Source: an uncultured Bacteroidota bacterium (GTDB taxonomy: Bacteria > Bacteroidota > Bacteroidia > Chitinophagales > Chitinophagaceae). Taken from it: a stretch of 64,000 nucleotides of DNA. This document shows positions 48,922-64,000 of the stretch, one piece after another; within the stretch, counting starts at the first letter, position 1; each line of letters starts with the position of its first letter. Under the pieces are notes generated by a model. It worked only from the letters and a program-made list of their open reading frames with translations. It was not told the origin of the DNA and made no database searches. Location: the NCBI GenBank assembly GCA_903824665.1, contig CAIJXT010000001.1:1-64000 (forward strand), in the 5' to 3' direction. The translations under genes were made by a program, and so were the position numbers.

Positions 48922-50352
48922 CTAAAGCGGATAAAATAACTGGTTGGGGTTCATCTTGCCGATGGTCATCATTTTCTGTGCAGCCTCCTCTACTCTTTCG
49001 GTACTCCGTACATTGATCACGATCACTGGACGCTTCCGGTTGTCATAAAACGAAGCAATACCCTCTTTCCCGGCATCAAGGTCCGCAATTTGTGGGAATT
49101 TCTTTTTCAGTACACCAAAATTCTCAGCGTGGTTGCTGTGTACAATAAACAGCTGTGTGCCCTCTTCGTTGTCTATCCTGTCTTGTGTTTCCTTATCCGC
49201 AATTGGGTACGATGCATTCGAGTTGGTCATCCGTACATGTCTGGACAGGCTGTTATACAGATCGTTGAATACGTCGTGTGTTGGTGCGTCGGTGTACAGG
49301 TTCACCGAATTCAGCAAATTGGCATAATCGTAAATGGCATCCGGAAACGTACGTTCAAATGTCAGGACTGCCTTGTTCACAAAAGCCTTGTCCAGCGTTT
49401 TTCCGGCCTTTATATACCGCTTCACTTCGGAGTACAATGCCTTTGCAAATCTGTTGATGTAGTCATCATCGTACCATGCTGCGGTATCCAAACTACCCGC
49501 CAATTGTGCATATGCCCACCCATTACCACATGCCGTTGCAAGCGCTTCGTCCAGATAACCATAGGCATACCTTGCATATGCCGACTTGTTTGCCGCAAAC
49601 ACCGAATCCAGTCTGCGTTGCAGTTTCAATGGCTGCTCTTCATACAGCACGTGGCAAATTTCATGTATTGCCACGCCCATGCGTTCTTTATGGTTGGTCT
49701 CTTCTGTAAGTACCCCCAGTGCAAGGCTGTTGCTGTATGGCGCTGCATTGGTATTCCCTTTTGCGCCGGGTATCCCAAAAAGACCCACGGTAAATGGGAT
49801 ATCGTCGCCCCAGGAACTGCCATAAAACTTTTTCAGCTGGTAAAAAATGTTGTCTGCTTCTTCTGCATACGTTTCCAGTGCAGCCAATTGGTTGTTCATG
49901 GCCGCAGCATATCCGCTCATCATCTTTTCGTATACCGGCGCAGCGGTCTGCATCGCGTTTCGCAGTTGCTGCCATTGCTCATTGGGCAGCAGGCCGGTTG
50001 TCCGATTCAGAAACTCTTCTATGCTATTACACTGTATCGCTGCATTATTGATGATAGCAGCCAGCGATTTTGGCTTCTGGCGCAGGGTAGGGTATTCGGT
50101 CCAGGTAAAACTATTGTCCAGTTCTATTTGCATAAAGCTGTTCACGGCTTTGTAAAACCTTGCCGAGTCTGCTGTTGGTACGTGTCGCCGCACATACGCA
50201 ATCAGAGTTCGCGATACATGAGCATCGTTGCCAGCTGCACGCAAAAAATTAAGCACGCAAAATGGCTTGCTGATCTTGAAATGCACCACACTTCCACCAT
50301 AGGTGTTTGCAACCAGCAACAGCACAGCGAGCGTAAGTGCGTATCTCTTCAT
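48922..50352 (-). CDS. Predicted secreted zinc metalloprotease of unknown family
   Basis: A 476-residue protein starting at ATG 50352 with signal peptide MKRYALTLAVLLLVANTYG. Near residue 220 it has H-E-I-C-H in VAIHEICHVLYEE, and about 45 residues later DEALATACGNGWAY, so an H-E-x2-H ... E-x2-A pair like that of gluzincin proteases; this arrangement makes zinc-dependent peptidase activity plausible. The C-terminal ~80 residues (NEEGTQLFIVHSNHAENFGVL and VIVINVRSTERVEE) form a separate alpha/beta segment. I cannot name the family. It lies behind glyS but the glyS terminator separates them. Confidence 0.82.
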   Translation of the reverse strand: MKRYALTLAVLLLVANTYGGSVVHFKISKPFCVLNFLRAAGNDAHVSRTLIAYVRRHVPTADSARFYKAVNSFMQIELDNSFTWTEYPTLRQKPKSLAAIINNAAIQCNSIEEFLNRTTGLLPNEQWQQLRNAMQTAAPVYEKMMSGYAAAMNNQLAALETYAEEADNIFYQLKKFYGSSWGDDIPFTVGLFGIPGAKGNTNAAPYSNSLALGVLTEETNHKERMGVAIHEICHVLYEEQPLKLQRRLDSVFAANKSAYARYAYGYLDEALATACGNGWAYAQLAGSLDTAAWYDDDYINRFAKALYSEVKRYIKAGKTLDKAFVNKAVLTFERTFPDAIYDYANLLNSVNLYTDAPTHDVFNDLYNSLSRHVRMTNSNASYPIADKETQDRIDNEEGTQLFIVHSNHAENFGVLKKKFPQIADLDAGKEGIASFYDNRKRPVIVINVRSTERVEEAAQKMMTIGKMNPNQLFYPL

Positions 50353-50367
50353 ACCAAAACGTGTTGT

Positions 50368-50396
50368 AAAAAATATGCCACACAATGTGTGGCATA
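50368..50396 (-). terminator. Rho-independent terminator of glyS
   Basis: A ten-pair stem TATGCCACAC/GTGTGGCATA with a three-base loop (374-396), followed on the minus strand by a run of six T. It starts 14 bp beyond the glyS stop and lies just before the metalloprotease start. Confidence 0.85.
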
Positions 50397-50409
50397 CCGG
50401 GCAAAAACA

Positions 50410-51840
50410 TTAGAACATTTTTATCTTATCCATTACCAGATTTTTCACATCTGCCAGCGCTATCCGCTCCTGTGTCATACTATCGCGATAGCGTATTGTT
50501 ACGGTCTGGTCTTCCTTGGTCTGGTGGTCTATCGTGATGCAGAAAGGCGTACCGATCGCATCCTGCCTGCGGTAGCGCTTACCAATACTGTCCTTCTCTT
50601 CATAAAAGCACTTGAAGTGCGGCTTACATTCATTGATCAAATCTCTCGCTATTTCGGGCAATCCGTCTTTTTTGGTCAGCGGTAGCACTGCCAGTTTTAT
50701 TGGCGCAAGCATTGGCGGGAAACTCAGCACCACTCTGCTATCTACTTTGTCATCGGCACTCAGATCTTCTTCTTTGTAAGCTTCGCTCAGTATCATCATT
50801 ACCGCACGGTCCAGCCCTATCGATGTTTCCACCACATACGGCACATAGTGCTGGTTGATCTCAGTATCAAAATAGGTCAGCTTTTTACCACTGAATTCCT
50901 GATGTTGCTTCAGGTCAAAATCGGTGCGGCTGTGTATACCTTCTACTTCTTTAAAACCCATCGGGAAATCAAACTCAATGTCGCACGCCATATCCGCATA
51001 GTGTGCCAGTTTCACGTGGTCATGAAAACGGTAATGATCTGCAGATATGCCCAGACTCAGGTGCCACTTCATACGGGTCTCTTTCCAGTATTCGTACCAC
51101 TCTTTTTGCGTGCCGGGTTTTACAAAAAACTGCATCTCCATCTGCTCAAACTCACGCATACGGAAAATAAAACCCCTTGCCACGATCTCATTTCTGAATG
51201 CCTTGCCGGTCTGCGCTATACCAAACGGTATTTTCATACGTCCGGTCTTCTGCACATTCAGGAAGTTCACAAAAATGCCCTGTGCTGTTTCCGGGCGCAG
51301 ATATATTTCATTGGCTTCCTCTGCCAGCGATCCCAGTTGTGTGGCAAACATCAGGTTGAACTGACGTACGTCTGTCCAGTTACAGGTGCCGCTTACTGCA
51401 CAGCTTATCTTGTTGTCTTCTATCAGTTGTTTTATGCCAGCCAGATCGTTTGCTGCCAGCAGCTGTTCCATTTGCTGCAGCAATGCGTCCGACTGCTCTT
51501 TTTCCAGTGTTTCTGCATAGGCCTCTATCAGGTGATCTACACGGTAGCGCTTCTGGCTGTCCTTGTTGTCTATCATCGGATCGCTGAAGTTGTCTACGTG
51601 ACCGCTCGCTTTCCACACCGTTGGGTGCATAAAAATAGCAGCATCAATGCCCACAATGTTATCGTGCATCTGTGTCATGCTGCGCCACCAGTAGTCGCGT
51701 ATGTTTTTCTTCAGCTCGGCGCCATACTGCCCGTAATCATATACTGCACCAAGGCCATCATATATCTCGCTCGACTGAAAGATGAAGCCATATTCTTTGC
51801 AGTGCCCTATTATATTCTGTAATTTATTATCATTTGCCAT
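50410..51840 (-). CDS. glyS: Glycine--tRNA ligase
   Basis: A 476-residue single-chain class II synthetase of the alpha2 (eukaryote-like) type, starting at ATG 51840 (MANDNKLQNIIGHCKEYGFI). Motif-like blocks: SSEIYDGLGAVYDYGQYG near residue 19, YLRPETAQGIFVNF near 185, FRNEIVARGFIFRMREFEQME near 225 (core IVARGFIFRMREFEQ) and the C-terminal anticodon-binding domain from about residue 375. It charges tRNA-Gly, one of which is encoded at 32.4 kb. It is divergent from the rhomboid-like gene. Confidence 0.97.
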   Translation of the reverse strand: MANDNKLQNIIGHCKEYGFIFQSSEIYDGLGAVYDYGQYGAELKKNIRDYWWRSMTQMHDNIVGIDAAIFMHPTVWKASGHVDNFSDPMIDNKDSQKRYRVDHLIEAYAETLEKEQSDALLQQMEQLLAANDLAGIKQLIEDNKISCAVSGTCNWTDVRQFNLMFATQLGSLAEEANEIYLRPETAQGIFVNFLNVQKTGRMKIPFGIAQTGKAFRNEIVARGFIFRMREFEQMEMQFFVKPGTQKEWYEYWKETRMKWHLSLGISADHYRFHDHVKLAHYADMACDIEFDFPMGFKEVEGIHSRTDFDLKQHQEFSGKKLTYFDTEINQHYVPYVVETSIGLDRAVMMILSEAYKEEDLSADDKVDSRVVLSFPPMLAPIKLAVLPLTKKDGLPEIARDLINECKPHFKCFYEEKDSIGKRYRRQDAIGTPFCITIDHQTKEDQTVTIRYRDSMTQERIALADVKNLVMDKIKMF

Positions 51841-52063
51841 AAGGGCGCAAAAATAAGTTGAATAGTTGAGAGTTGCTTCTATGGTTTGGTTGTGCGCTTT
51901 ACCTGTCTTTTCGCCATTATGTTTGGGTTTCGTTTCCAACATATACGGTATGAGTATTTTCTGCTGCCTTCCCGCAAAACAATGCTAAAAACGGCCGACG
52001 ACTACCCAAGTTAACACACCGCTCTGCTTCATTCCCGTTTTTATTCGATAATTTTACACCCGC

Positions 52064-52969
52064 ATGAACAAGGGGAGAAAAAAATCGATATTTCCATACA
52101 TACCGGGCTACGACAACAATACGGTACTCAAACTGATTTTTTTCATTTCCGGTGCCTATATCATGCTGGCTGTTACATGGGCAATAGTCATGCTCGTGTA
52201 CACTTCTTCCGACAACTTCAACAACTATTTTATTCCCTATATCGCATTACCCCGTCTGGCCGATTTTGCTTCATACCCCTGGACGATACTAGCTCATGGC
52301 ATTTTTCATTTCCCCAATAGTTTTATGGAGTTGGTCAGCAATATGCTATGGCTATATTGTTTTGGATCTGTGCTCCAGATGCTGGTAGGCAAAAAACAGA
52401 TTGTACCCATTTACTTTTATAGCATTATAGCCGGAGGGCTCTTCTACCTGCTTGGCCAGTTATTACCCGGCAATCTTGGCAATTGCCCTCCTTATATTAT
52501 GGGACCGCGGGCTGGCCTGGCTGGCATTTGTGCAGCAGCCGTCACCATCACCCCGAAATACCGCTTTTACCTCACCGAAACGTTCAGTATACCACTTGCT
52601 GTAGTTGCAGGCATTTTTACCGTGCTTATGATCATGGGCACGGGTTTCTACCTGCCGGTTATATTTATGTTGTTGGGTGGTGGGCTGCTCGGTTTTCTCT
52701 ATGTAAAACTGCTGCAGGCCGGTTACCGCCCCGGCGAGTGGATGTATATTTTCGGTAATAAACTGGAAAGCTTGTTTACTCCCGGCAAAGAAGCTACTAT
52801 GAAATCTAACCTTCGCCGAAAGGGTGTACTAATCAGCCTAAACAATAACTCAACTCCAGTATCTACAGAAAAACGAATCGACGATTTGCTCGACAAGATT
52901 AATCAGAAGGGTTATAAATCGCTAACTGCCGAGGAAAAAGACTTTTTGTCCAGTGCCGGAAAAAAGTAA
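52064..52969 (+). CDS. Rhomboid-fold membrane protein lacking catalytic Ser and His
   Basis: A 301-residue protein with six membrane helices of the rhomboid fold and a C-terminal cytoplasmic tail with a short helical domain (RIDDLLDKINQKGYKSLTAEE). The oxyanion-helix segment SNMLWLYCFG with Asn93 is kept. However, where rhomboid proteases have G-x-S-G, this protein has GLAG (residues 151-154), so the nucleophile is Ala153. Where the last helix has A-H-L-G-G, it has M-L-L-G-G, so the base His is Leu203. It is therefore likely a proteolytically dead pseudorhomboid that could bind or retain membrane clients. The gene stands alone upstream of the sigma-54-like module. Confidence 0.88.
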   Translation: MNKGRKKSIFPYIPGYDNNTVLKLIFFISGAYIMLAVTWAIVMLVYTSSDNFNNYFIPYIALPRLADFASYPWTILAHGIFHFPNSFMELVSNMLWLYCFGSVLQMLVGKKQIVPIYFYSIIAGGLFYLLGQLLPGNLGNCPPYIMGPRAGLAGICAAAVTITPKYRFYLTETFSIPLAVVAGIFTVLMIMGTGFYLPVIFMLLGGGLLGFLYVKLLQAGYRPGEWMYIFGNKLESLFTPGKEATMKSNLRRKGVLISLNNNSTPVSTEKRIDDLLDKINQKGYKSLTAEEKDFLSSAGKK

Positions 52970-53177
52970 ATCCGTTTCAAAGGATGCTTATTTTTTCGCC
53001 GGAAAATTTTTTTTCCAGATTTTTTTTGCTGTTTCCATTTTCCGGATTTTTTTAATTGGCCTCTCACTCTTTTGCGTCTCTCTATTAGCTATTGGTTATA
53101 GTTCTCTGCACCGCAATCTGCTCTTCTTCCGTCAAAATAGTGTTAATTAAAAACAAACTAATGCCAAAAACAAATCG

Positions 53178-53194
53178 TTGGCACAAGTTTTGTA
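53178..53194 (+). promoter_or_regulatory. Sigma-54-type (-24/-12) promoter of the 62-aa gene
   Basis: TTGGCAC, five bases, TTGTA. The -24 element is perfect and the spacing between GG and the -12 dinucleotide is the required 12 bases; the only departure is GT in place of GC at -12. It lies 25 bp before the start codon. No TAnnTTTG box is seen in this gap. Confidence 0.65.
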
Positions 53195-53218
53195 TTACTA
53201 CTATCAAATCCAAAGATT

Positions 53219-53407
53219 ATGAAGAACAGAGCAGTGATATACTTCAGCAAAAACAAGGCACTCAAAATCCTTGAAAGCCCACTTCAGGCCGACCTCAAAA
53301 CTTTATTGAGCGCTACATTCGCTATCTCTCATAGCCGCGTAGTTAAAAAAGATATACAAAAGACTTTAATGCAGCTGGACAGCCGGTCCTATAAACTGAC
53401 CGCCTGA
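53219..53407 (+). CDS. Small hypothetical protein (62 aa)
   Basis: A 62-residue basic protein beginning MKNRAVIYFSKNKALKILES and containing many Lys, Ser and Leu, without a signal peptide or membrane helix. Support for a real gene comes from its frame lying between a sigma-54-like promoter (53178-53194) and a good terminator (53464-53511). I recognise no family. An alternative is that the transcript itself is a small RNA and the frame is secondary. Confidence 0.6.
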   Translation: MKNRAVIYFSKNKALKILESPLQADLKTLLSATFAISHSRVVKKDIQKTLMQLDSRSYKLTA

Positions 53408-53463
53408 TCTCCTGATATGCTGCCAGCTTTTTAGATGGTGTGTGTTGGAATATGTGTGAGGTG

Positions 53464-53511
53464 AGAACAACATATCGCAGGCAATTGTCTGCGGTGTGTT
53501 GTTCTTTTTTG
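53464..53511 (+). terminator. Rho-independent terminator after the 62-aa gene
   Basis: A nine-pair outer stem (AGAACAACA 53464-53472 with TGTTGTTCT 53497-53505), an inner five-pair stem CGCAG/CTGCG, and then a run of T to 53511. It lies 57 bp beyond the stop codon. Confidence 0.85.
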
Positions 53512-53537
53512 TCTTCAGTTTTTTTATAAAAGTGATT

Positions 53538-53564
53538 TTTGGAATTGTTATTTACGTATATTTG
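53538..53564 (+). promoter_or_regulatory. Possible primary-sigma promoter of the DUF4783 gene
   Basis: TTTG (53538-53541) followed after 15 bases by TATATTTG (53557-53564), an exact TAnnTTTG box. It would give the DUF4783 gene a constitutive promoter in addition to the sigma-54-like one downstream. Confidence 0.5.
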
Positions 53565-53642
53565 AGACCCTTTACCAGTGTTATTTCGTTGTTTTGAGTG
53601 CAAAATGTTAATTTTTCTGAGAATTTTAACGTTTTGAAGAGT

Positions 53643-53659
53643 TTGGCTTCATTTTTGCT
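53643..53659 (+). promoter_or_regulatory. Sigma-54-type (-24/-12) promoter of the DUF4783 gene
   Basis: TTGGCTT, five bases, TTGCT. GG and GC are exactly 12 bases apart, and the -12 element is perfect; the -24 element has TT in place of AC in its last two positions. It lies 53 bp before the start codon. Confidence 0.6.
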
Positions 53660-53712
53660 GTTACTAGGTTGTGGTTCAAATGAAGTTGTGTGAATGCTTA
53701 TTTAATAACGGT

Positions 53713-54108
53713 ATGAAAAATTTTATTTTATTAGTTAGTTGTACTTTTCTTCTTCTTACGGTTCAAGCTCAAACATCCCGTCCACCGATGGAGGACGTTG
53801 TTAATGCTATCAAGAACAACCGTATAGAAGATATGTCGAAATATTTCGACAATATTGTACCAGTAACTATCAACAATACGCAGACTATTTATAGTCGCAA
53901 TCAGGCAGAGGTAGTACTCAAAGATTTCTTTGACAGAAACCTTCCTAAAGACTTTTTGGTTATGGACAACGGCTCGCCCAATAACACAACCAAATTCATA
54001 ATCGGTAATCTGGTTACGCCCAGCGGCACCAAGTACAATGTGTATATCCTGATGAAACAGAAAGACAGCAACTACTTGTTGCAGGAGATCAGGATCAACA
54101 AAGAATAG
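53713..54108 (+). CDS. DUF4783-family secreted protein
   Basis: A 131-residue protein starting at ATG 53713 with signal peptide MKNFILLVSCTFLLLTVQAQ. The body (VVNAIKNNRIEDMSKYFDN, VPVTINN, YSRNQAEVVLKDFF, then a final YLLQEIRINKE) fits the small periplasmic DUF4783 proteins of Bacteroidota, which resemble the NTF2/SnoaL alpha+beta fold. The function is unknown. It follows the 62-aa gene but has its own promoters and terminator. Confidence 0.88.
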   Translation: MKNFILLVSCTFLLLTVQAQTSRPPMEDVVNAIKNNRIEDMSKYFDNIVPVTINNTQTIYSRNQAEVVLKDFFDRNLPKDFLVMDNGSPNNTTKFIIGNLVTPSGTKYNVYILMKQKDSNYLLQEIRINKE

Positions 54109-54132
54109 ATTATTTTCTTCAGGCTTATTTAC

Positions 54133-54158
54133 GGCACACTATTTCGTGTGCCTTTTTT
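54133..54158 (+). terminator. Rho-independent terminator of the DUF4783 gene
   Basis: A seven-pair stem GGCACAC/GTGTGCC with a six-base loop followed by six T, 24 bp behind the stop codon. Confidence 0.9.
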
Positions 54159-54164
54159 GTGCGG

Positions 54165-54707
54165 CTACCCCTTCAATACATACAGATCAGGCAGATTTCT
54201 TCCAAAGCCATCATAGTCAAGTCCATACCCCAGCACAAACCTGTTGGCAATCTCAAAACCGGTATAATCTGCCCTTACATCGTATTGCAGCGCATCTGGT
54301 TTTGTTAAGAAGGTAGCGATTTTCACAGAAGCCGGCCCTCTTTGGTGTATTTCAGGCAGGAAAGCACTGAGTGTTTTACCGGTATCTATAATATCTTCTA
54401 CTATTATCACATGCCGGTCTTTCAGTTGTTCTTCCAGCCCTATAGCAGTGATCACACTTCCGGTCGATGTTGTTCCTTTATACGATGCCAGTTTTACAAA
54501 AGAGATGGTCGCATTGATCTTCAATGCCCTGAACAGATCTGCAGCAAAAATAAAGGAGCCATTCAATATTGCTATCATTAGTGGTGGCTCATCTCCATAA
54601 TCCTTGCTTATGGCTTCGCCCAGTTCTTCTACCCGTGCACTTATCGTTTCACGTGAAATGAACGGAACAAATGTCTTATCCAGTACTGTTACCTCCAATT
54701 GCGTCAT
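54165..54707 (-). CDS. hpt: Hypoxanthine phosphoribosyltransferase
   Basis: A 180-residue type I phosphoribosyltransferase for purine salvage. The PRPP motif VIIVEDIIDTGKT is near residue 99, SYKGTTSTG near residue 75 forms the flexible loop, and GYGLDYDGFGRNLPDLYV near the end is typical of HPRT. It overlaps the LysM gene by four bases, so translation is probably coupled. Codons for SRETIS near its start contain a parS-like site. Confidence 0.95.
   Translation of the reverse strand: MTQLEVTVLDKTFVPFISRETISARVEELGEAISKDYGDEPPLMIAILNGSFIFAADLFRALKINATISFVKLASYKGTTSTGSVITAIGLEEQLKDRHVIIVEDIIDTGKTLSAFLPEIHQRGPASVKIATFLTKPDALQYDVRADYTGFEIANRFVLGYGLDYDGFGRNLPDLYVLKG
54645..54660. other. parS-like site in hpt
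   Basis: CGTTTCACGTGAAATG: 13 of 16 positions match the ParB-binding consensus TGTTTCACGTGAAACA, and 13 of the 14 core positions. It lies inside the hpt coding sequence. Confidence 0.6.
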
Positions 54708-56296
54708 TCGCTAACTTTTATTGTTTGTCCTGCCTTCAGATCCTGGGCTTCAATATCATTCCACTTCAGCAACTGCGCTACCGTAACACCATGCTTCTTT
54801 GCTATAGAATACGCTGTTTCACCTCTCCTTACTATATGATTACGGTCTCCTGGCTTATACTCTTTTTCCGTAGCCGGCTTTCTGAGCTGTGGTTGCGGTG
54901 GATCGTCCTTCATAAACGGCTGCCGGGCTATTCCATTGATCGTCTTTTTAGCGGCAGTATCCTGTTTTGTCACAGTCTCCTGCGGCGGTGTCACCGCCTC
55001 CTGTTTTGTGGTTTTTGCTGCACCAGTTGCTGGCTCGTCATCTGCCGGAGCAGCAAAAGACATTCCGAAGCTCGCTGTTTGGGTTGACGACGCGATTTCT
55101 GCACTTGCTACCTGCTGCAATGTGTCTAATGCTGTTGCTTTAGGTGGTGTGTATTCAGTAACCAGCGGTTTTACTGTTGCTGTTTCCTGCAGTTGCAATA
55201 CTACTCCTGCTTTAGGTTGCTCATACTGATTCAGCAGATTCAGGGCTGCCAGCTTCTTCAGTTGTATACCTTCTGCCTGAGCCACCATGAGCAGCGTTTC
55301 ACCCTCTTTTACAGTATGGGTTGCATTAAGACCAGATGTTCTTTTCTTTTCCAGATACACATACGTGTCAAACGGCAAAGGCTCATCGGCCAGGTCATTC
55401 ATCTCTAGTAGGTGGCCATACCGTATTTTATACTGCACAGCATATTGTAGTAGCACATCCTCCTTCTTTCCACGTACGGCTTTCAACCCGTTTACAGTCA
55501 ATATCTTTCCACCATCATCACCAATTGGTTCTTCTCCAGGATACCGGGCTGCCAGCGGCACATTGTTCTGGATGGCGCTGCTGGCACTGTCTGCTGCTGC
55601 TGCTATCGCATCATATCCTGCTGTATCTGCTGCCGGTGTGGCGGGCACTGTTGCTATTTGGGTAGCCTCTGCTGCTGTTGCGGCAACAGCAGGAGCTGCT
55701 GCCGCCTGCGATGCGACTGTTGGCGGCAACGGTGTTTTTGCTGCATATCCTCTGTTGGGCAACTCATAGTTGCTGTCGAGCGCGGCATAGGTGTATTCCT
55801 GCAGATGATACTCTTCTATAATTTTTATGAGCTGGTAGGCATACTTTGGGTTGGTTGCGTACCCGCACTTCTTCAAGCCGTGTGCCCAGCGGGCATAGTC
55901 TGTAGGAGAATAGGTAAACAAAACACTGTACCTCGGATTTCTCAACAAGTGTGCTGAGTGGTCGTTATAGGATTCAAGTGCGTCTTTGTACTTCTTGAAA
56001 CACTCGTTTTTAGCATCATCGGTATGCAGAAAAGTCTCTCCCTGCCAGTTATTCTTGCATTTTACTCCAAAATGGTTGTTTGCTTTTACCATTAGCTCAC
56101 TGATGCCAGCTTCTGTCTCCAGTATACCCTGCCCAAGCGTCACAGATGCAGGTACACCCGTAGCCTTCTGATCAGCTATTGCATACTCAGCGTACTGTTG
56201 TATATAGTTCCTCGCCCTATCCGTATACCCTTCCTGTGCTGATACCCACAGGCCCATAACCACCAGCAAGAATGTAATAATTGACCTTTTTTTCAT
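54704..56296 (-). CDS. Secreted glucosaminidase with LysM domains
   Basis: A 530-residue exported peptidoglycan hydrolase. ATG 56296 begins MKKRSIITFLLVVMGLWVSA-Q, a signal peptide. Residues about 25-165 are a GH73-type N-acetylglucosaminidase domain (GVPASVTLGQGILETEAG with the catalytic Glu, NHFGVKC, LRNPRYSVLF, YARWAHGLKKCGYAT). An Ala-rich linker of about 65 residues follows, then three LysM-like modules (about 245-300, 310-355 and 480-530; the last two read HTVKEGETLL and HIVRRGETAYSIAKKHGV). A second linker rich in Thr/Ala/Gln separates modules 2 and 3. It probably remodels the cell wall during division or growth. Downstream hpt overlaps it. Confidence 0.94.
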   Translation of the reverse strand: MKKRSIITFLLVVMGLWVSAQEGYTDRARNYIQQYAEYAIADQKATGVPASVTLGQGILETEAGISELMVKANNHFGVKCKNNWQGETFLHTDDAKNECFKKYKDALESYNDHSAHLLRNPRYSVLFTYSPTDYARWAHGLKKCGYATNPKYAYQLIKIIEEYHLQEYTYAALDSNYELPNRGYAAKTPLPPTVASQAAAAPAVAATAAEATQIATVPATPAADTAGYDAIAAAADSASSAIQNNVPLAARYPGEEPIGDDGGKILTVNGLKAVRGKKEDVLLQYAVQYKIRYGHLLEMNDLADEPLPFDTYVYLEKKRTSGLNATHTVKEGETLLMVAQAEGIQLKKLAALNLLNQYEQPKAGVVLQLQETATVKPLVTEYTPPKATALDTLQQVASAEIASSTQTASFGMSFAAPADDEPATGAAKTTKQEAVTPPQETVTKQDTAAKKTINGIARQPFMKDDPPQPQLRKPATEKEYKPGDRNHIVRRGETAYSIAKKHGVTVAQLLKWNDIEAQDLKAGQTIKVSE

Positions 56297-56453
56297 CCTT
56301 GTTTTTTTAAACTTCCCCTCACTCAACTCGTGCAAAAATACATTTCTAACCGCAATTATCCGGTTCAATGTCCGGTATCTCAAAATTTAACAATGTGTTG
56401 AACGAGAAAACATTAAATTATTTTGTTTAGTATTAGGAGCCGATAGATATATG

Positions 56454-56903
56454 TTACTGTTCAAATATTTCTTTGATCGTCCCCAATACCAGATCCTGCT
56501 CGTACCCCTTTTGTACCAGAAATCGGTATATTTTCCCCTTTTTGGTGAAAATATTCTTCTCTTTCTTCAATTCTACGGCTTTTTTCCGGGCGAGACCTGT
56601 CAAAACAGTTATATACTCCTCACCGTCTATTTCTGCCAATCCCTTTCTGATACAGTATTCAGACACCTTTTTCAACCGCAATTGCTGTACAATCTTCTGC
56701 CTGCCCCAATGTTTCATCCGGAACCTGCCCCGGGCGTATGCCTTTGCAAAGCGTTCTTCATTCAGCGCACCAGCTTCTATCAGTTCACTCAGTTGGCGTT
56801 CCACCTCGTCAGTCCCAAAACCCAGTTCATACAGCTTGTTCCTGGTTTCGCTGTGGCAGCGCTCCTGGTACTTACAGTAATAAACTATTGCCGGGTCTAT
56901 CAT
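56454..56903 (-). CDS. recX: Regulatory protein RecX
   Basis: A 149-residue all-helical protein. The repeated three-helix pattern of RecX is visible: LYELGFGTDEVERQLSELIEAGALNEERFAKAYARGRF (core GALNEERFAKAYARGRF near residue 44) and KGKIYRFLVQKGYEQDLVLG near the end. It modulates RecA filaments. It lies 70 bp behind mnmG in the same direction. Confidence 0.92.
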   Translation of the reverse strand: MIDPAIVYYCKYQERCHSETRNKLYELGFGTDEVERQLSELIEAGALNEERFAKAYARGRFRMKHWGRQKIVQQLRLKKVSEYCIRKGLAEIDGEEYITVLTGLARKKAVELKKEKNIFTKKGKIYRFLVQKGYEQDLVLGTIKEIFEQ

Positions 56904-56973
56904 TAACTACTAAAACATCTTGTTTAGGGCACACCTATTACCTACCGCATACTACCTGTATTTGCCCTTGTGG

Positions 56974-58842
56974 TTACCTGCCCATGTATACCATCAGTAT
57001 CTGCACATCACTCGGGTTCACACCACTTATCCGGCTTGCCTGCCCCAGAGTGGCGGGTCGTATCTTATTCAACTTTTGTCTTGCTTCAGACGACATCGCC
57101 GTCAGTTTATCATAATTAAAGCTGTCGGGAATGATCAGATGTTCTAAAGCAGCCATTTTCACCACCATTTCCTGCTCTTTTTCTATGTACACATCATATT
57201 TCAGCTGTATCTCCACCTGTTCCAGTATCAGCGGGTCTGTGCCCTGCAGCTGCTCACCAAGTACAGGTATGGCCGCCATCATTTCCTTTAGTCCTATTCC
57301 CGGACGCAGCAGCAGTTTTGCTGCTCTGGTCTTATCTGTAATAGGGGATGAATTGTTTTCCTGAAGAAATCCGTTCACCATACTGCTATCCAACGAACAA
57401 TCTGCCAGTATTTGTTTGATTTCGGCCACCTTTTGTCTTTTAGCCTTCATTGTGTCCAATCTTTCCTGCGATGCCAGCCCTATATCGTATCCTAGCTCTG
57501 TTAGCCTGAAGTCAGCATTATCCTGCCTGAGCAATGTCCTGAACTCAGCCCTGCTCGTAAACATTCTGTACGGCTCATCCGTTCCTTTGTTGATCAGATC
57601 GTCTATAAGTACTCCTATATAGGCGTCACTACGTTTCAGTACCACGGGCTCCAGGTCATGTGCCAGCCTCGATGCGTTGATACCGGCCATCAATCCCTGA
57701 CACGCTGCTTCTTCATACCCTGTAGTACCATTTATCTGGCCCGCAAAGAAAAGATTGTGTACCAGCTTCGTCTCCAGTGTGAATTTTAGCTGTGTTGGCG
57801 GAAAATAGTCATACTCAATAGCATATCCGGGTCTGAAAAACCTGCAATTTTCGAAACCGGGCACTTTTTTCAGCGCATTGTACTGTACTTCCTCTGGCAG
57901 CGATGTACTGAATCCGTTTACATAAATCTCTACGGTATTCCAGCCTTCTGGTTCTACAAACAACTGATGGCGTTCTCTTTCGGCAAACCGGCTTATTTTA
58001 TCTTCAATACTTGGGCAGTACCTTGGCCCGCTTCCTTTTATCCTGCCCTGATACATTGGCGACTGGTCAAATCCTGTTTTCAGAATATCATGAACCTCCT
58101 GGCTGGTATAGGTCACCCAGCAACACCTTTGCGACTCGGGCTTTATCCGTTCCGTGGGCAGATACGAGAACCCTACTACTTCCTCGTCACCATGCTGCTC
58201 TTCCATTTTCGAGTAGTCCAGACTTCTGCCATCTATACGGGGTGGTGTTCCTGTTTTCAGTCTTGCTGTCTCAAAACCCAGCTCCACTAATTGTTCTGTG
58301 ATACCGGTTGCTCCCTTTTCACCCATTCTACCACCTCCAAACTGCTTTTCACCTACATGAATTACACCATTCAGAAAGGTTCCATTAGTAAGTACCACAC
58401 ATTTACCGCGTATCTCCTGCCCCATTCCTGTTACTACTCCGCTAATTGTTCCACGTGAAACAATTAAACCTTTCACCATATCCTGCCAGAAATCTACATT
58501 AGGAGTCCTTTCCAAGAGCTCCCTCCATGTCGCAGCAAACAACATCCTGTCATTCTGCGTACGAGGGCTCCACATACCGGGCCCTTTCGATTTGTTCAGC
58601 ATTCTGAACTGTATGGTACTTCTGTCACTCACAATTCCACTGTACCCACCCAGTGCATCTATCTCCCGCACTATCTGACCCTTAGCTATGCCACCCATTG
58701 CCGGATTACAACTCATCTGCGCAATGGTCTGCATATTCATAGTCACCAGCAGCACCTTCGAACCCATATTGGCAGCAGCAGCGGCAGCCTCACATCCTGC
58801 GTGGCCGGCACCTACTACAATAACATCATATTCAGGAAACAT
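56974..58842 (-). CDS. mnmG: tRNA uridine-5-carboxymethylaminomethyl modification enzyme MnmG (GidA)
   Basis: A 622-residue FAD protein that, with MnmE, modifies U34 of several tRNAs. ATG 58842 gives MFPEYDVIVVGAGHAGCEAA, with the dinucleotide-binding GxGxxG. Other blocks are MSCNPAMGGIAKGQIVREIDALGG near residue 47 (core CNPAMGGIAKG), TGTPPRIDGRS near 200, and the C-terminal helical domain with LSSEARQKL-like and RISGVNPSDVQIL ends. The gene is found next to the replication origin in many bacteria. A nearly perfect parS site lies within it. Confidence 0.98.
   Translation of the reverse strand: MFPEYDVIVVGAGHAGCEAAAAAANMGSKVLLVTMNMQTIAQMSCNPAMGGIAKGQIVREIDALGGYSGIVSDRSTIQFRMLNKSKGPGMWSPRTQNDRMLFAATWRELLERTPNVDFWQDMVKGLIVSRGTISGVVTGMGQEIRGKCVVLTNGTFLNGVIHVGEKQFGGGRMGEKGATGITEQLVELGFETARLKTGTPPRIDGRSLDYSKMEEQHGDEEVVGFSYLPTERIKPESQRCCWVTYTSQEVHDILKTGFDQSPMYQGRIKGSGPRYCPSIEDKISRFAERERHQLFVEPEGWNTVEIYVNGFSTSLPEEVQYNALKKVPGFENCRFFRPGYAIEYDYFPPTQLKFTLETKLVHNLFFAGQINGTTGYEEAACQGLMAGINASRLAHDLEPVVLKRSDAYIGVLIDDLINKGTDEPYRMFTSRAEFRTLLRQDNADFRLTELGYDIGLASQERLDTMKAKRQKVAEIKQILADCSLDSSMVNGFLQENNSSPITDKTRAAKLLLRPGIGLKEMMAAIPVLGEQLQGTDPLILEQVEIQLKYDVYIEKEQEMVVKMAALEHLIIPDSFNYDKLTAMSSEARQKLNKIRPATLGQASRISGVNPSDVQILMVYMGR
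58447..58462. other. parS site in mnmG
   Basis: TGTTCCACGTGAAACA matches the consensus TGTTTCACGTGAAACA at 15 of 16 positions. The palindrome extends to 58444-58465 with AATT ends and only one mispair. Confidence 0.85.
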
Positions 58843-59085
58843 GCCACAAAGATACACACATACATCCTACTAACCCACACCCATAGCCACAACAAACCAA
58901 ACTATCACATTCGCATATCAGCACCACCAACAGTATACTTGCCCGTACACAATGTCGCTTTCAATCCCTGTCAACTGTATACAGCCATAAACGCCCCTTA
59001 CAATTCAACCGTCGATTCTGTATCGGTCAATTAATGCTTGAAACTCGTTCTCAACCTATATTGTCACAATAAAGTCAATAAACAA

Positions 59086-59101
59086 TGTTCCACGTGGAAC
59101 A
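59086..59101. other. parS site, perfect palindrome
   Basis: TGTTCCACGTGGAACA, a perfect 16-bp palindrome and a known variant form of the ParB-binding site (the Pseudomonas sites have the same core). Intergenic, 13 bp before the -33 element of the next gene, so ParB binding could affect that promoter. Confidence 0.87.
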
Positions 59102-59113
59102 AAAATAATTTTT

Positions 59114-59143
59114 TTGCAACTTTAACAATATTATATAACTTTG
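59114..59143 (+). promoter_or_regulatory. Promoter of the barrel gene at 59158
   Basis: TTG (59114-59116), 19 bases, then TAACTTTG (59136-59143): both elements and the optimal spacing of a Bacteroidota primary-sigma promoter. The -7 box ends 14 bp before the start codon, so the leader is very short. Confidence 0.8.
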
Positions 59144-59157
59144 TACGTTATTACGAT

Positions 59158-59811
59158 ATGCGTTCATTCCGCTTCATACACACTGCCATCACTATGTGCT
59201 TGCTACTTATAGCAACTACATCTGGCAATGCCATAGCTCAAAGCTATGATAGAAGCAAGCTGACCAAACTGGACCATAAATTCACGATAGGTTTCGAACG
59301 CCGTGTTGCTACTTTCTATTTCCCACAATCCGTTCAGTACAACAGAAAAACCAAGGTTGCCGAAGAACAAACCAACCGTATCATTCTTAGAATGAAATTG
59401 ACATCCCGCTTTCGTTTGGAAACCGGTCTTAGCTACAAGGCTATAGATAAAATTCTGAAGAACAACGGGAAATTCAACAAAGCTTTCAATATCAACCAAC
59501 CTTGCAAACTCAGTGTACCGCTTACCATTCAGTATCAACTGCAGAATGAGCGCAAACGCCTTCGCCCATACTTTGGTGCCGGTGTGCAATATTACCAGCA
59601 AGACTTACCGAGTGGTGTAAATGACGGTGACTATTCAATGTTCCAGACTGGAATGTCTAATGGTCTTAAATACATCAACATCATCTTTACACAAGGCCTT
59701 ATCTACGACATCAACAAAGATCTACAGATCACTCAGTCTATGCATATCCTGCCAGAGAATGGCATGAAACCTATTGGCATAAACATCGGCGTTGGGTACC
59801 GCATAAAGTAA
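59158..59811 (+). CDS. Putative outer-membrane beta-barrel protein
   Basis: A 217-residue protein starting at ATG 59158 with signal peptide MRSFRFIHTAITMCLLLIA then TTSGNAIAQ. The mature part is strand-rich (FTIGFERRVATFYF, RIILRMKLTSRFRLETGLSY, LSVPLTIQYQLQ, LRPYFGAGVQYYQQ) and ends in INIGVGYRIK, as small barrels do. No functional motif. The longer frame upstream passes through the promoter and parS site and is not used. Confidence 0.8.
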   Translation: MRSFRFIHTAITMCLLLIATTSGNAIAQSYDRSKLTKLDHKFTIGFERRVATFYFPQSVQYNRKTKVAEEQTNRIILRMKLTSRFRLETGLSYKAIDKILKNNGKFNKAFNINQPCKLSVPLTIQYQLQNERKRLRPYFGAGVQYYQQDLPSGVNDGDYSMFQTGMSNGLKYINIIFTQGLIYDINKDLQITQSMHILPENGMKPIGINIGVGYRIK

Positions 59812-60257
59812 TCCTTCCTTACATTTCTTTCGAGCAACTCTGCTGGTGCCAATCTATGGTTCTGTACAACACACCTATTTTCTGTACTAGTGCTATCTAA
59901 TTTGCTAGTATCAAACTCGATGCAGCATTGATCAATAGTATTTCAGTTAACATCCTGGAAAGTATATCGTAGAAGAAGGCACCTTTCCGCTATAACCACT
60001 TAAACCCAACAGTATCCACTCAGAACAATCCCGCTGATGAACACTAAGTCTCAACCATTAAGCATAATTAAAATAAAAAGCCTAAAACTACTAACCAACC
60101 AAAATCATTACGGAATTAACTAGTTACAACTTCCTAGAAATACCCTCCTATATCATTCAAGTCCAACTAATACTAAATCTGTAGTAAAGCAGAATTGCCA
60201 TAAATAGAAAAAGGGTATCGTTGCCGATACCCTTTCCCGTCAAAATTACTCGTCTAC
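59812..60257. other. Gene-free gap of about 450 bp
   Basis: Between two stops that face each other. It holds the terminator at 60199-60235. The rest is AT-rich with frequent stops in all frames; I see no RNA gene, repeat or remnant of a coding sequence. Confidence 0.5.
60199..60235 (-). terminator. Rho-independent terminator of the type A T9SS cargo gene
   Basis: An 11-pair perfect stem AAAGGGTATCG/CGATACCCTTT (60210-60235) with a four-base loop, followed on the minus strand by a T-rich tail. It starts 22 bp beyond the stop codon. Confidence 0.9.
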
Positions 60258-62258
60258 TTATTTAGCTATAACGAAGTTACGTGCTACTGCTTTCTCATCA
60301 GTGTTGATGATCAGGTAGTAACTACCTGGAGCAAGCTTGGAAGTATTAACTGTAAAAGTTTCTTCTTTTACATTGGTGTGTACTTCTTTGCTTACAAACC
60401 TTGCCAGACCGTCTACGATAGTGTATGTAACATTCTTTGACTTCTTGTCGAGAGACAAAGAAACCTGGATGTTATCCTTAGCTGGGTTAGGGAACAAACT
60501 TACCCTTGTATCCAGCTTAGTTACTGGTGCTACGTAGTCGATTGGAGGAGGATTGCTGTTGGTGATCATCGCAACAGAAGGTATCATACCACGTGTGTTG
60601 TTGAAGTTGAAAGAATCAACTGTTCCAACGTAGTTGGTCATAGTACCAGGAATTGGCGCGTGAGAACCGGTTGGAGTAGCAACGATATTATCGTTTGATG
60701 TTTCAACCATGTTTGAGTTGTCAAGAATACCTGCTGTACCCAGCGCACGACCATAGATACGTGGCAATGGGTGCATGATACCGTCAGAACCCAGGAAGTG
60801 ACCACCAGGTACGCCTATTGCAAGGTAATACCAGCTGTCTGCCTCAAGCAGGATTGTTGTTGGGTTACCGGATGTAGGATCGCCCATTGCAGCAAAGTTA
60901 AGAGCAGCACCAGATGTATCCAATACACCATCAAAGTTATGCAGACCCAGAGATTTCAGCGTAAGCTCACCATTCTGGATTACACCGTCTGGATCACCAC
61001 CTGTTCCATCAGTCCATTTGTAAAGGTAGATGTTAACTGCAGTACCCAATGGGCCAGGAGTGTTTGTAGACAATGAGTACTGAACACGTGATATAGAAGT
61101 ACCGCCGTTCTTTACATAATACATTGGACCCCAAATAAAGTCTCCACCTGCATTAAAAGAAAAACCAATTGTTTTTACAGGCTGGTTCAGGGTGAAATCA
61201 TAACGGCTCTTGCTGAACAGGCTATCCGTTACATAAAACGAACTTGTCAAAGAGTTATCAGCAGGGTAGTCGTCTGTACCTGTCATACCTATTGTATAAT
61301 TCAGATCGAAACGGCCTTTACCTGGAACAGTCAGATCATACTCAGTGCCACCAGCTGCAGTAAACATAGCGAAGATAGAATCGGGAGTAGCTGCTGCTGT
61401 ACCTGTAAACGGTGTTGTCATCGTTACAGTGTGTGTATGTTGTGTTGTAGCTGATCCACCTGTTGGGGTAAACTTCAGCTCGCTGATCACATTTACACCT
61501 GTCTGGTCTGCACTACCATAGTTGGCTATGAAAGAACCATCAACCATTTTGTAGGCAGCAGGAGTACCTGCACCGCTCATCTGGTTGAATGGTATAGCAT
61601 AGTTATGCCATCCGGCAACAGCACTTGGCACAAAGCCAAGATCATTAGCCAGACCCAGACCCCATGGAGTGATAGTGAAACGTGCAGTATCGCCAGCGCG
61701 ATAAAGCGCTGCAATAGCGTCACCATCTTCCTTAGAGATCATGAACACTGGCTTTGTAACAGATGTAGCTGGACAAACTGAACCAGCACCCATACCAATT
61801 GGTCCACCATTTATATTGTTAACGATAACTATTGCTATCGCACCAGCAGCTTCGCAACGCGCTGCTTTACAAACAAATTCAACACCACCACCTCTATATA
61901 CAAATCCAATTTTGCCTGTCATAGAGCCAGGTGTAAGAGTGCTAGCAGCAACCGTGTCACCACCTACTGGTGGCATTACGATTTGTGTGTTCACTATCGG
62001 CGCAGTCACGGTACCACCCCATGGAGTAGTGCCTACACCTGGGTGGGTGTATATTTTCTGGCCAGCTACTGATGCCGGACTGTTTACCACAAACCTCAGA
62101 CCCACGTAATCTTTGTACCAGTTTGGGTCTGTAACCGTTGTGCCATCCATCAACGTATACGGGCCGAAAGCCAACGGATGTATCTGTCCGTTTGCTACGC
62201 TTGCTCCTGCTATGCAAGACGCAAGCAAGAGATTTTTTAGTGTAATCATTTGCTTCAT
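60258..62258 (-). CDS. Secreted T9SS cargo with PA domain and type A sorting domain
   Basis: A 666-residue secreted protein. Signal peptide in the first 24 residues (LKNLLLASCIAGASVANG-Q). Residues about 50-195 form a protease-associated (PA) domain (GKIGFVYRGGGVEFVCKAAR with AAGAIAIVIVNN). A large beta-rich middle follows (about 200-575), containing Cys-poor strand patterns and a segment on glycine/Asp turns. The last ~80 residues are a type A sorting domain (DTRVSLFPNPAKDNIQVSLS, then LAPGSYYLIINTDEKAVARNF). It is exported by the type IX system and anchored at or released from the surface. No catalytic motif was found, so it is perhaps a structural or binding protein. Confidence 0.9.
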   Translation of the reverse strand: MKQMITLKNLLLASCIAGASVANGQIHPLAFGPYTLMDGTTVTDPNWYKDYVGLRFVVNSPASVAGQKIYTHPGVGTTPWGGTVTAPIVNTQIVMPPVGGDTVAASTLTPGSMTGKIGFVYRGGGVEFVCKAARCEAAGAIAIVIVNNINGGPIGMGAGSVCPATSVTKPVFMISKEDGDAIAALYRAGDTARFTITPWGLGLANDLGFVPSAVAGWHNYAIPFNQMSGAGTPAAYKMVDGSFIANYGSADQTGVNVISELKFTPTGGSATTQHTHTVTMTTPFTGTAAATPDSIFAMFTAAGGTEYDLTVPGKGRFDLNYTIGMTGTDDYPADNSLTSSFYVTDSLFSKSRYDFTLNQPVKTIGFSFNAGGDFIWGPMYYVKNGGTSISRVQYSLSTNTPGPLGTAVNIYLYKWTDGTGGDPDGVIQNGELTLKSLGLHNFDGVLDTSGAALNFAAMGDPTSGNPTTILLEADSWYYLAIGVPGGHFLGSDGIMHPLPRIYGRALGTAGILDNSNMVETSNDNIVATPTGSHAPIPGTMTNYVGTVDSFNFNNTRGMIPSVAMITNSNPPPIDYVAPVTKLDTRVSLFPNPAKDNIQVSLSLDKKSKNVTYTIVDGLARFVSKEVHTNVKEETFTVNTSKLAPGSYYLIINTDEKAVARNFVIAK

Positions 62259-62361
62259 AAAAATTACTTTTTAATTTGGTTTGACAATTTATAACTATTA
62301 TATAAAATAAACAAAAAAATAACGCAAAAAGGGGTATTATTAACAATATTCTTATTGCATT

Positions 62362-63369
62362 CTAATGTACTAATCCGGCACTTAAACTGATCTCCATCAT
62401 CCTGTCTATTGGTCGCTTTGCTGCCAGCCTCAGTGTTTCTTCCATTAGTATCTCTGGTTGTTCGTACTTCAGGCACAGGTATATTTTCTCTAGTGTGTTC
62501 CGCTTCATGTGCGGGCACTCGTTACAAGCACAGGCATTGTCTGGCGGCGCTGCTATAAATGTCTTTGTTGGCGCCGCAGCTATCATCTTGTGCAGTATAC
62601 CCGACTCTGTTGCCACAATAAAGGTCTGCGCTTTATCATGCTCAGCATACTTCAGTAGTTCCGTTGTAGACCCTATAAAATCAGCTACCTGCAGCACGGC
62701 GTCTTCACATTCAGGGTGCGCTATCATTTTCGCCTCAGGATGCCGTGCTTTCAGCCTTGTGATCTTTTCCAGCGAAAAAATCTCATGCACCATACATGCA
62801 CCATTCCACAAAACCATATCCCTGCCAGTAACCTTGTTGATATAAGCACCCAAATTTTTGTCCGGAGCAAATATGATCTTTTGGTCCTTGGGCAGGCTTT
62901 CTACTATCGCCCGTGCATTCGACGATGTACAGATAATATCGCTCAGCGCTTTTATGGCAGCTGAGCAATTTATATACGATACTACTATGTGGTCAGGGTG
63001 TTTTTGTTTAAAAGCACTGAACAACTCTGGTGGACAGCTGTCACTCAGCGAGCATCCGGCTTTCAGATCCGGAATCAGTACCTTCTTCGTCGGGTTCAGT
63101 ATCTTAGCTGTTTCGGCCATAAAATGCACTCCGGCGAAAACAATGATATCGGCTTCTGTTTTAGCCGCATTTCTGGCCAGCCCCAGACTATCACCTACAT
63201 AATCAGCTATATCCTGAATATCAGGCTCCTGATAGTAGTGCGCCAGTATCACAGCATTCTTCTCTTTCTTCAATTCAGCTATCGCACCAAAGAGATCCAA
63301 CGACGGATCTACCTCAATGTCCAGAAAACCATGTTGCAGCAACGAATCTTTGGCAAAATCAACCATCAC
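62362..63369 (-). CDS. nadA: Quinolinate synthase
   Basis: A 335-residue iron-sulfur enzyme joining iminoaspartate and dihydroxyacetone phosphate to quinolinate, the second step of NAD synthesis. Motifs: [23 protein letters not shown] near residue 40 (core [13 protein letters not shown]), [14 protein letters not shown] near 82, [10 protein letters not shown] near 104, the second cysteine in NGACMVHE near 195 and CACNECPHM near 280. The three cluster cysteines are thus in place. A second ATG one codon inside is possible. Upstream is the candidate origin region. NadC is at 19.5 kb; NadB is not in this window. Confidence 0.97.
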
Positions 63370-63949
63370 ACAAACATATTAATTAAATAACCTTTCTCAC
63401 AGAAATCAAATCACCAAAATAGGGTCCTGCAAAGTTAAATAGCAAAAATCATACCACAATGAATAAGCTATCCACATTCCTAATAATAGTAAATAACTTT
63501 TTTTAAAAACAACCACTATTACTATTAAGGGTGTGGATTGGTGGATTAATATTCGGTCACACACTTGTAATGCTCAGAAAATCACTTTACTAACATTTTG
63601 CCCACGCATTACCCACACAACTTTTGTATGGCGGCACCCAATATAGCTACCCAATTGTGAATTGCTAAAAACCTTGTTGTGAGTAAAAACAGCGTTGTTA
63701 ATATCGTGGCTACCTGTGGATTACTGCCAAAAAAAAAGGATAACAAACCCGATTGTGTATAACGCTGCCCGTCAAAAAATACTTGTTAGCCACAAACCTA
63801 CAGTTACCAACACTTATTAAGATACAGCTAACAAAAAAGTAATCATTATATAACACACATCAATAGAATTAGCATTGGTACCACCTAAAGTGTTTTTTCT
63901 GCCCCCCGTTATTATTTACATCCTTTTACCTACCTTTGCCCTCCCAAAT
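63370..63949. other. Candidate replication origin (oriC): DnaA-box cluster in a gene-free region
   Basis: 580 bp without a gene between nadA and tRNA-Leu. Five nonamers differ from the DnaA box TTATCCACA by one base: CTATCCACA 63468, TTACCCACA 63609, TGTGGATTA 63715 (reverse), TGTGTATAA 63754 (reverse) and TTAGCCACA 63786. Two weaker ones are at 63532 and 63678. An AT-only stretch around 63481-63515 and an A-run at 63729-63737 could serve as unwinding elements. The expected number of such nonamers by chance in this length, both strands, is about 0.1 for even base composition. parS-like sites lie 4-9 kb away. Confidence 0.65.
63931..63938 (+). promoter_or_regulatory. Probable promoter -7 element of tRNA-Leu
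   Basis: TACCTTTG, an exact TAnnTTTG match, 11 bp before the first base of the tRNA. The -33 element is not clear. Confidence 0.6.
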
Positions 63950-64000
63950 GCGGGTGTGGTGAAATTGGTAGACACGCCAGACTTAGGATCTGGTGCTGCG
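63950..64000 (+). tRNA. tRNA-Leu (anticodon TAG), 3' end cut by the window edge
   Basis: The visible 51 nt have a 5' acceptor strand GCGGGTG, a D-arm with TGGTGAAATTGGTAGACACG, and an anticodon stem CCAGA/TCTGG around loop CTTAGGA. The variable arm begins but the T-arm and 3' acceptor lie outside the window. Confidence 0.93.

Follow-up and report, generated by a model that had tools for sequence, protein, structure and literature searches.

The gene-free gap at positions 63370–63950 of the window (the whole 64-kb stretch of DNA analyzed, which is the start of the 322-kb contig C1 in a 4.73-Mb genome of 35 contigs) is very probably the chromosome replication origin, oriC, situated at a distance from dnaA. 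An oriC away from dnaA had been put forward for this gap in a first-pass annotation, and our bioinformatics analyses support the proposal because the DnaA-box cluster and its core are conserved among relatives, because the parS-like sites near the gap are unique in the genome, and because the sampled skew minimum of one relative (G137) falls at the element. What is directly established is the box cluster, the conservation of the cluster, the sequence of both arms of the core, the proximity of parS-like sites, and the skew minimum in that one relative. The inverted core goes beyond the earlier annotation, which gave no account of the inverted arms.

A DnaA-box cluster in a gene-free gap

The gap is 581 bp long with 35% G+C and is flanked by nadA (quinolinate synthase, PF02445, 62362–63369, minus strand, from the ORF list and Pfam) and by a tRNA-Leu(tag) gene on the plus strand, of which 63951–64000 lie in the window and which continues beyond it to C1:64033. 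The absence of genes claimed for the gap is borne out by the ORF list, in which no gene of at least 80 aa was seen in 63370–63950, with the tRNA-Leu(tag) beginning only at 63951; the sole listed ORF of that size touching the gap, of 133 aa, ends at 63390 on the strand opposite nadA and overlaps nadA. mnmG (PF01134, 56974–58857), which had been placed about 5 kb away, is 4.6 kb from the gap by measurement, and dnaA, correctly described as outside the window, was located on a separate contig (C19:222715) that also carries the ParB gene, the DciA gene of this genome being on C29.

Five nonamers, each one base off TTATCCACA, stand within 327 bp of the gap: CTATCCACA at 63468–63476 (plus strand), which is the box of the nadA-proximal arm of the core, TTACCCACA at 63609–63617 (plus), TAATCCACA at 63715–63723 (minus), TTATACACA at 63754–63762 (minus), and TTAGCCACA at 63786–63794 (plus). 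The first-pass count of five one-mismatch nonamers in about 330 bp is therefore confirmed, and none of 3000 runs of 581 bp, simulated under a first-order Markov model of the gap's dinucleotide make-up, reached that number. The expectation of about 0.1 that accompanied this count holds for even base composition, but the gap's own dinucleotides give a mean of 0.26 boxes with at most one mismatch for the 581-bp gap. Boxes with at most two mismatches numbered 10 against 2.9 expected in the Markov simulation (P 0.001). The remainder of the 64-kb window contains 11 further matches with at most one mismatch, one of them perfect, and the whole genome contains 1099 in 4.73 Mb, a match density from which about 0.0015 clusters like that of the gap would be expected by chance. 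Over the first 202 kb of C1, no further 500-bp stretch with three or more boxes was found. The gap thus holds an intergenic DnaA-box cluster, as expected of an oriC, and this cluster exceeds chance.

Two arms facing across an A/T-rich core

The core at 63468–63548 is an inverted pair of basal-unwinding-system (BUS)-like arms that face each other across an A/T-rich tract; within an arm, a DnaA box is followed by a spacer of about 3 bp and then by NTA trinucleotides, the box being oriented toward the trios of its own arm. In the nadA-proximal arm, the plus-strand box at 63468 is followed by the 3-bp spacer TTC (63477–63479) and by four NTA trinucleotides, CTA ATA ATA GTA (63480–63491, plus strand), corresponding to 3'-NAT-5' trios on the minus strand. 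The nadA-distal arm runs on the minus strand from two tandem box-like nonamers, the outer TAATCCACC (63540–63548) and the inner CAATCCACA (63532–63540), each with two mismatches, through the 3-bp spacer CCC (63529–63531) to the four NTA trinucleotides TTA ATA GTA ATA (63517–63528), corresponding to 3'-NAT-5' trios on the plus strand. Between the arms, the proposed unwinding element at 63492–63512, with TTTTTTTAAAAA at 63498–63509, is 90% A+T, and an A/T-rich element stands beside boxes as expected of an oriC. The inverted repeat of the core can fold as a hairpin (z -1.84), and a pattern combining the box end with TAATARTA has five matches in the 4.73 Mb of the genome, two of which are the facing arms.

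The trios of B. subtilis occupy the strand opposite the one that carries the box. On this basis, and on that of the C. difficile oriC2 trio region, quoted as CACCTACTACTATTACTACTATGA in the portion of PMC7561715 used here, the trios of the window were taken as complementary to the box strand. The BUS rule, as worded in an excerpt of PMC8287927, calls for a DnaA box with at most two mismatches within 16 bp of at least three middle-A trios; the proximal arm of the window has a box with one mismatch, a 3-bp spacer, and four trios, and the distal arm a box with two mismatches and four trios.

Conservation of the core within the genus

nadA was detected in 31 of 40 genomes, this one among them, and its best relatives are, by record title, from Chitinophagales, Sphingobacteriales, and other Bacteroidota. 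The genus alignment comprises 24 loci from 24 of the 25 genus genomes, own included (G016, with no nadA match, was left out); these sequences are related, and counts across them are not independent. A block of about 85 bp is conserved across the 24 aligned loci, and with nadA to the right its first half reads TTATTCCCC (in 19/24 loci, at the position of the outer tandem box, 63540–63548), a second box-like nonamer, a C-rich spacer, and TAATARTARTAG, and its second half the A/T core, CTATTAWTAGG, and then TGTGGATAA. At least three NTA trios are present in the distal arm of all 24 loci and in the proximal arm of 21, and the distal inner box, which is poor by the E. coli consensus, has at most two mismatches in nine. 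Because the distal-arm boxes are poor by this consensus, only 8/24 loci pass the strict box rules in both arms. As such rules score the distal arm too low, trios were also counted at fixed positions, and by this count both arms have at least three in 21/24 loci.

Across the 24 loci, trio variation is concentrated on the first base (pooled permutation P 0.013), clearly so in the distal arm (entropy by base 0.94 versus 0.06 and 0.24) and weakly in the proximal arm (0.69 versus 0.47 and 0.57). The first base of the first trio, read on the box strand, is C in 22/24 proximal arms (CTA in the window) and in 14/24 distal arms (TTA in the window); in an excerpt of PMC8287927, the trio most often found next to the box is given as 3'-GAT-5'. 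Strict facing arms occur in 8 of 110 nadA-upstream regions, all eight within the genus, and in none of the 3.0 Mb of control sequence (1.29 + 1.72 Mb), and any strict arm occurs in 38/110 of these regions, versus 27 arms in the 3.0-Mb control.

Occurrence of the element beyond the genus

At least three boxes with at most one mismatch in 600 bp, within 1.5 kb upstream of nadA, are found in 22/24 genus loci and, by the same rule, in 40/80 loci of the genome_contigs collection, with Chitinophaga, Terrimonas, Niastella, and Sphingobacterium as named examples; the background for at least three boxes in 600 bp is 20 of 4000 pieces of 1500 bp. None of the 15 Saprospiraceae-titled loci has at least three boxes upstream of nadA, and the position beside nadA is therefore not general. 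A sequence profile of the core, R1, whose E-values are rough, matches 91/198 genomes of the order at E ≤ 0.01 (about two expected) and 16/295 genomes of the class at E ≤ 0.001, five of these 16 being in the own family; the core is thus conserved among relatives, as expected of an oriC. Several elements match R1 on both strands with near-equal scores (e.g. 33.4 and 33.2 bits in G177), as would be expected of a mirror element. In other families, the core element adjoins COX15/CtaA, nadD-like, or AMP-binding genes, and these changing neighbors indicate that it is not tied to nadA.

For the analysis of arms, 69 element loci were assembled from 30 of the 91 R1-matching genomes of the order, with the window's own locus (L233) among them, from nine of the 11 loci of the class-wide R1 search that are outside the order's own family (L284 was omitted and L290 was too short), and from 30 genome_contigs loci with E ≤ 0.01 (L043, L027, and weaker ones were omitted). 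The genome_contigs search itself covered 77 of the 80 loci, L093, L097, and L102, cyanobacterial by title, being omitted; two of its loci, L023 and L039, have scores like those of genus members and might duplicate genomes already in the other collection. Apart from the window's own locus, strict facing arms are present in 2 of 68 element loci, the second box being mostly absent in other families, and single strict arms among the 69 loci (own included) number 25 and 17 for the two strands. A relaxed rule (three mismatches, two trios) gives facing pairs in 23/69 loci, own included, versus 14/6000 background pieces, a count to which no weight is given because background pieces also pass.

The element stands beside COX15/CtaA in the four loci examined of family f18 (L243, by Pfam, and L244, L256, and L262, by reading), and near nadD-like genes (PF01467) in L249 and L285 of other families and, by reading, in L284. 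Both nadA and nadD are NAD-synthesis genes, and their shared proximity to the element is possibly a coincidence. A regular array was seen downstream of nadA in a Chitinophaga MAG (L032, 12000–12564), with ten DnaA-box-like nonamers of at most one mismatch in one orientation at a spacing of 61–63 bp; it may represent a repeat family or a site of DnaA titration.

parS-like sites and GC skew

Two parS-like sites are on the plus strand of the window, TGTTCCACGTGAAACA at 58447–58462, inside the mnmG coding sequence and 5.0 kb from the gap, and the palindrome TGTTCCACGTGGAACA at 59086–59101, upstream of mnmG and 4.4 kb from the gap; both are perfect matches to TGTTNCACGTGNAACA, which we take to be the parS consensus. 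They are the only parS-like sites with at most one mismatch in the whole genome, and the location of both near the gap supports the oriC reading. The distance of 4–9 kb given for parS in the first-pass annotation agrees at its near end with the 4.4 and 5.0 kb measured, but not up to 9 kb, as the window has no third site with two mismatches or fewer.

GC skew was sampled in three one-contig genomes and one long contig, besides the own C1. In the one-contig genome G137, of the own family, the R1 element was placed at 640,159 before the skew was read, and the best skew origin is at 0.50–0.64 Mb with a correlation of 0.868 (20 samples of 20 kb), a value equaled in none of 5000 permutations (95% level 0.675, full-grid permutation). 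The dnaA gene of this genome, at 2.54 Mb (its C1:2539354–2539839), is near the sampled skew maximum and fits at best at -0.36. It may thus lie close to the terminus and, if the contig is circular, is separated from the proposed origin by about 1.4 Mb along the shorter path; the distance from dnaA to the element varies among the relatives searched. In G077 (20 samples of 5 kb), the element ties the best position with a fit of 0.42 that is not significant (permutation P 0.65), and dnaA fits poorly (0.02). Chitinophaga sp. E66 (60 samples of 20 kb) has a broad skew minimum at about 5.5–6.1 Mb, with a fit of 0.668 for nadA at 5.62 Mb and of 0.678 for dnaA at 0.11 Mb, the maximum being 0.715. In a 1.3-Mb contig of the genus member G002 (33 samples), the mean skew is -0.038 on one side of nadA and +0.002 on the other (P 0.005, one-sided Mann-Whitney), with the best break about 110–130 kb off. 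The cumulative skew of the own C1 does not bottom out at 63 kb: over the first 202 kb it is lowest near 120–125 kb, and the stretches at 202–222 and 242–262 kb, two of the three sampled beyond 202 kb, are negative again. Skew, which had been suggested as a check of the candidate origin, has its sampled minimum at the element in the relative G137, does not decide the matter in G002, Chitinophaga sp. E66, or G077, and shows no minimum at the gap on the own C1. Own-genome skew was set aside as origin evidence, because the contigs cannot be ordered and the C1 minimum is not at the gap.

Alternative readings

Several other functions were considered for the element. Its core is about 100 bp upstream of nadA in the window and its inverted repeat is foldable, as might be the case for an operator, terminator, or riboswitch regulating nadA and not for an origin, but no Rfam match reaches the gathering score in 50000–64000, there is no terminator-like site in 63300–64000, and the element adjoins unrelated genes in other families; this reading was rejected on these grounds and is very improbable. 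It is also quite unlikely that the gap is a DnaA-titrating (datA-like) box cluster, close to the true origin but distinct from it: box clusters alone are no proof of an origin and the skew of the own contig is not sharp, but the trios, the A/T core, the nearby parS-like sites, and, in G137, the position of the element at the skew minimum speak against it. An origin at dnaA is a common arrangement in many bacteria, and the skew of Chitinophaga sp. E66 fits nadA and dnaA about equally well. There is, however, no cluster of at least three boxes in 500 bp in the 100 kb round dnaA (C19:175–275 kb), and given this and the poor skew fit of dnaA in both G137 and G077, an origin at dnaA on contig C19 was rejected as extremely improbable.

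A further question is whether one arm or both would work within an oriC at the gap. The chances appear about even that there is a single working unwinding arm, with the mirrored arm being a leftover or an extra DnaA site. The scarcity of strict facing arms in element loci other than the window's own, where single strict arms are common, is in line with this, as are the weak trio periodicity of the proximal arm and the trios of B. subtilis, described on one strand in the part of PMC10201434 consulted. Yet the proximal arm is the one with the better box, with at most two mismatches in 23/24 genus loci, and the TGTG of this box is invariant in 24/24 of them while the columns just outside vary. 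These features leave room for a symmetric origin, which we put forward tentatively, in which two inverted DnaA-trio arms would share one A/T core, with DnaA on both strands and loading in mirror image. Under such a symmetric origin, it is conceivable, though somewhat doubtful, that both helicases are loaded by DnaA without a separate second-strand element, and the order might, at a similarly modest likelihood, hold a graded series of forms, the genus having the complete mirror and others a single strong arm.

A proposed mechanism and its relation to known origins

In the mechanism proposed for the symmetric origin, DnaA would collect on the scattered boxes and then be positioned at the core (63468–63548). 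One DnaA-ATP oligomer would start at the box at 63468 and extend over the 3'-NAT-5' trios of the minus strand, and a second would start at the outer box at 63540 and extend over those of the plus strand; the two would meet in the shared A/T core and open it from both sides. With DciA, each oligomer may next direct a single replicative helicase to the strand that it occupies, so that two forks would move apart. DnaA binding, opening, the use of both arms, and helicase loading at the core are all predicted here from sequence.

The arms resemble the B. subtilis incC BUS (boxes 6/7 and DnaA-trios) in having a box, a short spacer, middle-A trios on the complementary strand, and an A/T-rich tract, and also in their tandem boxes, here in one arm, but differ from it in that two inverted arms face each other on opposite strands, with 3'-NAT-5' trios. 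More than one putative unwinding element is also a feature of a Streptomyces origin, which, to go by title alone, reportedly has two (Plachetka, 2019). According to the sections of PMC10201434 and PMC10721633 drawn on here, the trios of B. subtilis are on one strand with a DnaD recognition element opposite them (PMC10201434), and second-strand helicase loading is proposed to proceed via DnaD, dual loading being called unclear (PMC10201434, PMC10721633). Box orientation matters in this system, as incC is inactive with box 6 or boxes 6/7 reversed (PMC6669920, in excerpt). C. difficile oriC2 has the same NTA rhythm as the window but, unlike its paired arms, a single trio run, in the dnaA region, with none clear in oriC1, as far as the text seen of PMC7561715 goes. 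Like origins predicted away from dnaA, of the DoriC/Ori-Finder type, which are intergenic box clusters near a skew shift, the gap has an intergenic box cluster, with a skew shift near the element in G137; unlike them, it is here beside nadA and in other families beside other genes. A search of open-licence papers turned up neither this origin nor DnaA-trio arms that face each other, and the facing arm pair is undescribed as far as that literature shows, although single arms of related origins may appear among the predicted BUS of 1755 origins (PMC8287927 supplement).

From a practical point of view, the element is a workable oriC marker in a group in which dnaA need not mark the origin. Mirror arms bear on the question of dual helicase loading, which is described as unclear in the available portions of PMC10201434 and PMC10721633, and a natural mirror pair can be compared directly with relatives in which one arm is strong. 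A mirrored opening site may bear on how bidirectional copying starts.
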